In this document: positions 43,899 to 45,575 of the stretch, piece by piece
Layout: each line of letters begins with the position of its first letter
How positions within the stretch are numbered: the stretch's first letter is position 1
Source of the DNA: Caulobacter sp.
GTDB taxonomy: Bacteria > Pseudomonadota > Alphaproteobacteria > Caulobacterales > Caulobacteraceae
DNA: 64,000 bases
Assembly: GCA_028291055.1 (NCBI GenBank)
Contig: JAQGIP010000028.1
Coordinates: 1 to 64,000, forward strand
Reading direction: 5' to 3'
Notes under the pieces: generated by a model
Seen by the model: only the letters and a program-made list of their open reading frames with translations
What the model was told of the DNA's origin: nothing
Database searches by the model: none
Made by a program: the position numbers and the translations under genes

Positions 43899-45575
43899 AT
43901 GGCTCACGCCGCCGCTCACGACGACCACGCTCATGACGACCATGGGCATGACGCCGATCACAAGCCGCCCTTCCTGGTGCGTTGGCTCTTTTCGACCAAC
44001 CACAAGGACATCGGCACGCTCTACATCCTGTTCGCGATCTTCGCGGGCCTGGTGGGTGGGGCGCTGTCGGGCCTGATCCGCTGGGAACTGGCCGAACCGG
44101 GCATCCAGATCTTCCGCGCCGGCTCCTGGCTGGCCAACAGCGGTTTGGTCGAGGGTTCCAAGCACGGCTACAATGTGGTGGTCACCGGCCACGCCCTGAT
44201 CATGATCTTCTTCATGGTCATGCCCGCCATGATCGGCGGGTTCGGCAACTGGTTCGTGCCGCTGATGATCGGCGCGCCGGACATGGCCTTCCCGCGCATG
44301 AACAACGTCTCCTTCTGGCTGCTGATCGCCGCCTTCGTGATGCTGGTCGTGTCGATGTTCGTCGACGGCGGCCCGGGCCACGGCTTCGGCGGCGGCTGGA
44401 CGCTCTATCCGCCGCTATCGACGATCGGCCACACCGGCCCGTCGATGGACTGCGCCATCCTGTCGATCCACCTGGCCGGCGCCTCCTCCATCCTGGGCGC
44501 CATCAACTTCATCACCACCATCTTCAACATGCGCGCCCCGGGGATGACCATCCACCGCATGCCGCTGTTCGTGTGGTCGATCCTGGTCACCGTCTTCCTG
44601 CTGCTGCTGAGCCTGCCCGTCCTGGCCGGCGCCATCACCATGCTGCTGACCGACCGCAACTTCGGCACCCACTTCTTCGACCCGGCCGGCGGCGGCGACC
44701 CCGTCATGTTCCAGCACCTGTTCTGGTTCTTCGGCCACCCGTAGGTCTACATCCTGATCCTCCCAGGTTTTGGCATGGTCAGCCACATCGTCTCGACCTT
44801 CTCGAAGAAGCCCGTGTTCGGCTATCTCGCCATGGCCTACGCCATGGTCGCCATCGGCTTCGTCGGCTTCATCGTCTGGGCCCACCACATGTACACCGTG
44901 GGCATGCCGGTGAACCTCCAGGCCTATTTCGTGGCCGCGACGATGATCATCGCCGTGCCGACCGGGGTTAAGGTGTTCAGTTGGATCGCCACCATGTGGG
45001 GCGGCTCCATCGACTTCAAGACGCCCATGCTGTGGGCGATCGGCTTCATCTTCCTGTTCACCGTGGGCGGCGTCACCGGCGTGGTCCTGGCCAACGCGGG
45101 CATCGACTACAGCCTGCAGGACACCTACTACGTCGTGGCCCACTTCCACTATGTGCTCAGCCTCGGGGCCGTGTTCGCGATCTTCGCCGGCTTCTACTAC
45201 TGGTTCGAGAAGATGTGGGGCGTGAAGTACAACGAGTTCCTCGGCGCTCTGCACTTCTGGATCACCTTCGTCGGCGTCAACATCATCTTCTTCCCCCAGC
45301 ACTTCCTGGGCCTGCAGGGGATGCCGCGCCGGATCGTCGACTACAACGTGCACTTCGCCTACTGGAACAAGATCTCCTCGATTGGCTACGCGATCACCGC
45401 CGTCGGCGTCGTCGTCTTCCTGGCGATGCTGGTGGAGTCGATCATCCGCCGCCGCAAGGCCTCGGCCAATCCCTGGGGTGAGGGCGCCACCACCCTGGAA
45501 TGGACGCTGCCTTCGCCGCCTCCCTTCCACCAGTTCAACGAGCTGCCGGTCATCCGGGCCGACAGCACCCACTAG
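43899..45575 (+). pseudogene. ctaD: Cytochrome c oxidase subunit I, interrupted by an in-frame TAG at the D-channel glutamate codon
   Basis: The frame encodes a 558-position aa3-type subunit I. Heme a ligand His98 ([10 protein letters not shown]), CuB ligands His280 (FFGHP), His329-His330 (WAHHMY), the K-channel lysine (TGVKVF) and the distal heme ligands ([10 protein letters not shown]) are all in place. Codon 282 (44742-44744) is TAG where the family has Glu in [14 protein letters not shown]. By spacing this is Glu278 of Paracoccus or Glu286 of Rhodobacter, needed for proton pumping. The downstream part stays in frame with no further stop, so this is a single GAG-to-TAG change or a base error. 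Reinitiation at ATG 44775 (CCAGG seven bases earlier) would give a separate fragment without Glu. Confidence 0.9.

Follow-up and report, generated by a model that had tools for sequence, protein, structure and literature searches.

The ctaD gene of a Caulobacter sp. draft genome (assembly GCA_028291055.1), which encodes subunit I of an aa3-type cytochrome c oxidase, carries one in-frame TAG at the codon for the D-channel glutamate. This stop has the look of an ordinary error of sequencing or assembly, or of a mutation that broke the gene recently, and not of a new reading of the genetic code. The gene lies in a 64,000-nucleotide stretch of contig JAQGIP010000028.1 (positions 1 to 64,000, forward strand), referred to here as the window. 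Its frame comprises 558 codons and a final TAG, and codon 282 is the sole internal stop, as a first-pass annotation made from the letters of the window had read it. The gene and its neighbours are arranged as follows:

42946..43878, + strand: ctaC, subunit II, with COX2 and COX2_TM domains, open frame (Pfam)
43899..45575, + strand: ctaD, subunit I of the aa3-type cytochrome c oxidase, interrupted by one in-frame TAG (frame reading, Pfam COX1, 1ar1 alignment)
44742..44744, + strand: the in-frame TAG, codon 282, at the position of Paracoccus Glu278 (frame reading, relatives, 1ar1 alignment)
45573..45575, + strand: the normal ctaD terminator, likewise TAG (frame reading)
45724..46716, + strand: ctaB-like prenyltransferase with a UbiA domain, open frame (Pfam)
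46852..47472, + strand: ctaG/Cox11 copper assembly protein, open frame (Pfam)
47568..48449, + strand: ctaE, subunit III (COX3), open frame (Pfam)
48449..48832, + strand: DUF983 protein, open frame (Pfam)
48959..49753, + strand: SURF1 family assembly protein, open frame (Pfam)

The two pieces of ctaD match positions 1–212 and 214–435 of the 436 in the Pfam COX1 model (PF00115), and the domain is present across the full length of the gene, as in A-type haem-copper oxidase subunit I. Alignment to the Paracoccus structure (PDB 1ar1) gave a constant offset of four, placing residue 282 at Glu278 and His280, His329 and His330 at Paracoccus 276, 325 and 326, which bears out the earlier identification of the interrupted codon as that of the D-channel glutamate. 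His98, His280, His329, His330 and Tyr284 are identical in 48 of 48 sequences, a count that covered these four of the haem and CuB histidines (the other haem histidines are 415 and 417). The D-pathway glutamate is a mark of the A1 subtype; in the window ctaD, as assembled, TAG stands in its place. One study describes this residue, numbered Glu286 in its oxidase, as a highly conserved point at which the D pathway branches, with a single residue between it and the CuB ligand His284 (PMC4550891). The neighbouring ctaC, ctaB, ctaG, ctaE, DUF983 and SURF1 genes hold complete or nearly complete Pfam domains, in keeping with the annotation's view that ctaD is otherwise intact and in frame and that the rest of the operon looks functional.

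The stop is an isolated event. Comparison with the closest relatives, a check which the annotation had proposed, returned glutamate at this site in every case. Among 47 same-genus orthologues compared codon by codon, residue 282 is encoded by GAA in 44 and by GAG in three, and none has an internal stop. When the ctaD of G368, another draft genome in the family, was added together with the 19 family orthologues that scored best outside the genus (eight of these 19 with GAG), the set came to 67 and glutamate was still invariant (56 GAA, 11 GAG). The same holds for all of the best 80 of 567 named loci (59 GAA, 21 GAG), in which no stop occurs ahead of codon 552, a set which overlaps the 67 in at least one genome (that of locus L158). 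In a search of the genus, 73 of 75 genomes were matched, the window's own included, and the only three rows with internal stops came from the window's genome (ctaD, a mitochondrial contig and a short COX1-like fragment), the ctaD rows of same-genus relatives having none. A family-wide protein search matched 353 of 390 genomes; among its best 150 rows, counted by eye, two carry a stop: one is the window, the other G368, with a lone in-frame TGA at Trp226 of its ctaD, a position encoded by TGG in 66 of 66 others. The window ctaD is mostly 84–88% identical to its full-length same-genus matches, with two at 79–80%. The best matches by protein score in the family search belong mostly to another genus of the family (g20), not to the window's own. 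A literature search, not designed to prove absence from print, found no title on a stop in a bacterial subunit I.

That UAG is read through to yield a full-length subunit I, by a suppressor tRNA, reassignment or site-specific recoding, appears highly improbable. The frame is open and constrained on either side of TAG, which speaks for such a reading. Against it, the search for an amber-suppressing tRNA, which had also been proposed, found no CUA anticodon among 42 tRNAs, an incomplete set (tRNA-Ile(GAT) is absent) from which a tRNA may have been missed, and a single tRNA-Glu (TTC). Under suppression or reassignment UAG would be rare or absent as a terminator; here TAG closes 268 of 663 coding frames detected in 761,709 bases (15% of the genome, window included), and ctaD itself ends in TAG. 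A recoding structure downstream of the stop was considered and rejected, as no strong RNA fold follows it and the 102 bases after TAG fold more weakly than those of 61 of 67 orthologues. Moreover, no orthologue examined has a stop at the glutamate site, and a degenerate-pattern scan of genome contigs for TAR at this site returned no matches, in a search run without a positive control and from which the window's own genome may have been excluded. Finally, ordinary misreading of UAG would not be expected to insert glutamate. We give almost no credence to a recoding confined to this one UAG that needs no dedicated CUA tRNA, inserts glutamate at the proton-gating position and could turn the pump on or off. 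It also seems exceedingly improbable that the gene is split, with polypeptides of 281 and 266 amino acids assembling into a working subunit I: an in-frame ATG at 44775 could restart translation after the stop, but residues 282–292 would be lost, including the glutamate and the invariant Tyr284, and no ctaD row of a same-genus relative in the genus search shows an internal stop. Recoding and a split enzyme, even taken together, are very unlikely. Of the three options that the annotation had left standing, recent inactivation and a base-call error both fit the data, whereas suppression is not supported.

The annotation had found it striking that the only stop falls on the most studied residue of the enzyme, and we consider this overstated. 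Outside codon 282, a stop could arise in ctaD by a change of one base in 114 ways, spread over 78 codons and including nine G-to-T changes, and the gene contains nine further glutamate codons; the chance that a nonsense change falls on codon 282 is therefore about 1 in 115, or about 1 in 10 if only G-to-T changes are counted. Because a stop anywhere in the core of ctaD would truncate the protein, the fame of the residue probably adds little, and its exact position is a weak coincidence, not strong evidence of anything. Nor is the lesion necessarily a single G-to-T, as had been proposed, since this presupposes a GAG ancestor, while 44 of the 47 same-genus orthologues have GAA, which is two steps from TAG.

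Signs of decay were sought in the gene and around it. Over codons 30–539, the window ctaD has nine private amino acids (four before the stop, five after) and 17 private synonymous codons; the former number is the fourth-highest of 48 sequences, behind 37, 10 and 10, and is high but not outlying. Several lesions and relaxed constraint, which characterise established pseudogenes, are not seen, as the gene has one stop only. Because neither gene nor operon shows decay, any loss of ctaD would be recent, or else the stop would be absent from most of the living population. When the contig of one relative was compared with the window (hits at about 35.6–62.4 kb), in-frame stops appeared in ctaD, in some frames judged by eye to be shadows of real genes, and in one further hit (query 52219_+), which extends beyond the end of the ctaG frame. 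The codons CTC CCA GGT TTT that follow the TAG are unusual for ctaD. The idea that foreign sequence had been patched in here was nevertheless rejected: there are four rare bases in this stretch, the T of TAG included, against eight in 54 bases in the densest such stretch elsewhere in the gene (start at nucleotide 1402–1432).

The assembly itself is a draft of 154 contigs (4.99 Mb, 99.46% complete, 4.56% contaminated). One contig of 5.2 kb (C130) encodes cytochrome b and cox1 with TGA read as tryptophan, and is mitochondrial DNA within a bacterial assembly; given this contig, a eukaryote was present in the sample, perhaps a fungus. Within positions 274–4614 of C130, cox1 starts with MWTERWF, and a tRNA-like stretch and nad4L- and nad5-like frames were recognised by eye. 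A mix-up between this cox1 and the window ctaD was rejected, because C130 has GAA at the site and differs around it; a 24-base stretch starting 16 bases past TAG matches nowhere else in the genome at up to three mismatches. Two tRNAs, tRNA-Ile(GAT) and tRNA-Ala(TGC), are absent among the 42 found, an absence typical of short-read assemblies that have lost their rRNA operons. A 16S search found no match in the window's genome, and a Caulobacter control was unmatched too. The sample behind this draft was probably a mixed one. Another contig (C113, 10831–11322, locus L115) holds an orphan protein of 163 residues with a match to COX1 confined to the C-terminal part (model positions 307–435 of 436); this protein keeps the motif QDTYYVVAH and directly follows, by eye, a transporter-like frame; short, weak matches to the same part of COX1 occur in four genomes of the genus (G001, G010, G059 and G063).

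We then asked how common such interruptions are in this consensus, using coding statistics over the same 761,709 bases. The 663 detected coding ends include 42 same-frame mid-gene stop candidates, ctaD among them, in a scan that needs a long coding signal both before and after a stop to detect it and that superseded a looser one with 64 candidates, many of them shadow frames. In 28 of the 41 other candidates a start codon lies no more than 33 bases past the stop, as in neighbouring genes, which is not proof of a gene end, as ctaD shares the feature at 30 bases. Separate searches with the two pieces were made for 15 of the 41, comprising all 13 without such a start and two others. Twelve of these 15 were ordinary gene ends, with pieces in different families or a complete family in the first piece, and three had no family matches (C87 at 28128, C136 at 4820 and C139 at 34383); the remaining 26, all with a start within 33 bases, were assessed by eye only. 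No mid-gene stop other than that of ctaD was confirmed among the 663 coding ends, a result as compatible with one sporadic error or variant as with one real mutation.

Between these two, we lean, with confidence only a little above even, towards an error in the consensus of the draft assembly, or a variant carried by a minority or a strain. TAG would have entered the ctaD consensus by a wrong base call or consensus step, or because the assembler picked up such a variant; no amino acid would be read at UAG, and the gene would otherwise be normal and probably working in the organism. The isolated TAG, its intact surroundings and the draft, mixed assembly are observed; a glutamate codon in most of the living population is our inference. 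Several observations favour an error or variant: the gene has this one stop and no other sign of decay, the assembly is fragmented and contaminated, with its mitochondrial contig and two missing tRNAs, and G368, another draft genome of the family, also has a lone stop in ctaD. In addition, a search of the genome with PF00115 turned up no full-length bacterial haem-copper oxidase besides aa3, there is no second copy of ctaD and no match to a ccoN model, and the cytochrome c branch looks in use, because the operon domains are complete or nearly so and the cytochrome b of the bc1 complex is an open frame. Two points count against an error or variant: the consensus is not generally stop-ridden, with one confirmed mid-gene stop among 663 coding ends, and if the ancestor had GAA two letters must have changed, which is beyond one sequencing error.

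A genuine and recent nonsense mutation, by which the strain or population lost its aa3 oxidase and respires via cytochrome bd, is a serious possibility that we place somewhat short of even. A two-step change from GAA to TAG comes about more readily through evolution than through a single error, a lone stop fits one real event, and a very recent loss would leave no decay to be seen. The check for other terminal oxidases suggested by the first-pass annotation yielded one open cydA frame (PF01654, contig C24, 512 codons), and cytochrome bd, identified by this one subunit, might make the loss of aa3 survivable. One report states that C. vibrioides, which has bd and bo3 oxidases as well, stays viable when its aa3 and its cbb3 oxidase are both missing, and also that aa3 is the predominant oxidase in normoxic conditions (PMC12617631), the latter arguing against inactivation. 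In the window's genome neither a cbb3 nor a bo3 backup was found; a real loss of aa3, possible with only cytochrome bd remaining, would idle the bc1 complex and the cta operon, yet both look intact.

If the stop is an error or a variant, it belongs to a common kind of artefact in draft genomes, and if it is real it is a simple knock-out; either way a lone stop of this sort matters little. Were it confirmed in a living strain, that strain would be a relative of Caulobacter that naturally lacks aa3 and lives on cytochrome bd, and would be mildly useful to the study of respiratory physiology. The lesson is that a stop in a draft genome calls for a check of tRNA content, stop-codon usage and relatives before any proposal of recoding.

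Compared with the aa3-type (A-type) ctaD/CoxA genes of the same family, the window ctaD shares the COX1 domain on both sides of the stop, the histidine ligands and the neighbouring cta genes, and differs by one in-frame TAG replacing the D-pathway glutamate. Known amber suppression and UAG reassignment, as with pyrrolysine or UAG used as an amino acid codon, likewise place an in-frame UAG inside a conserved frame; here, in contrast, no CUA tRNA was found, UAG is a frequent terminator and one gene is affected. The sporadic lone nonsense codons of draft assemblies also affect a single site in an otherwise intact gene, with a parallel within the family in the Trp226 to TGA change of the G368 ctaD, and the window differs from these in that its position happens to be a well-studied residue.
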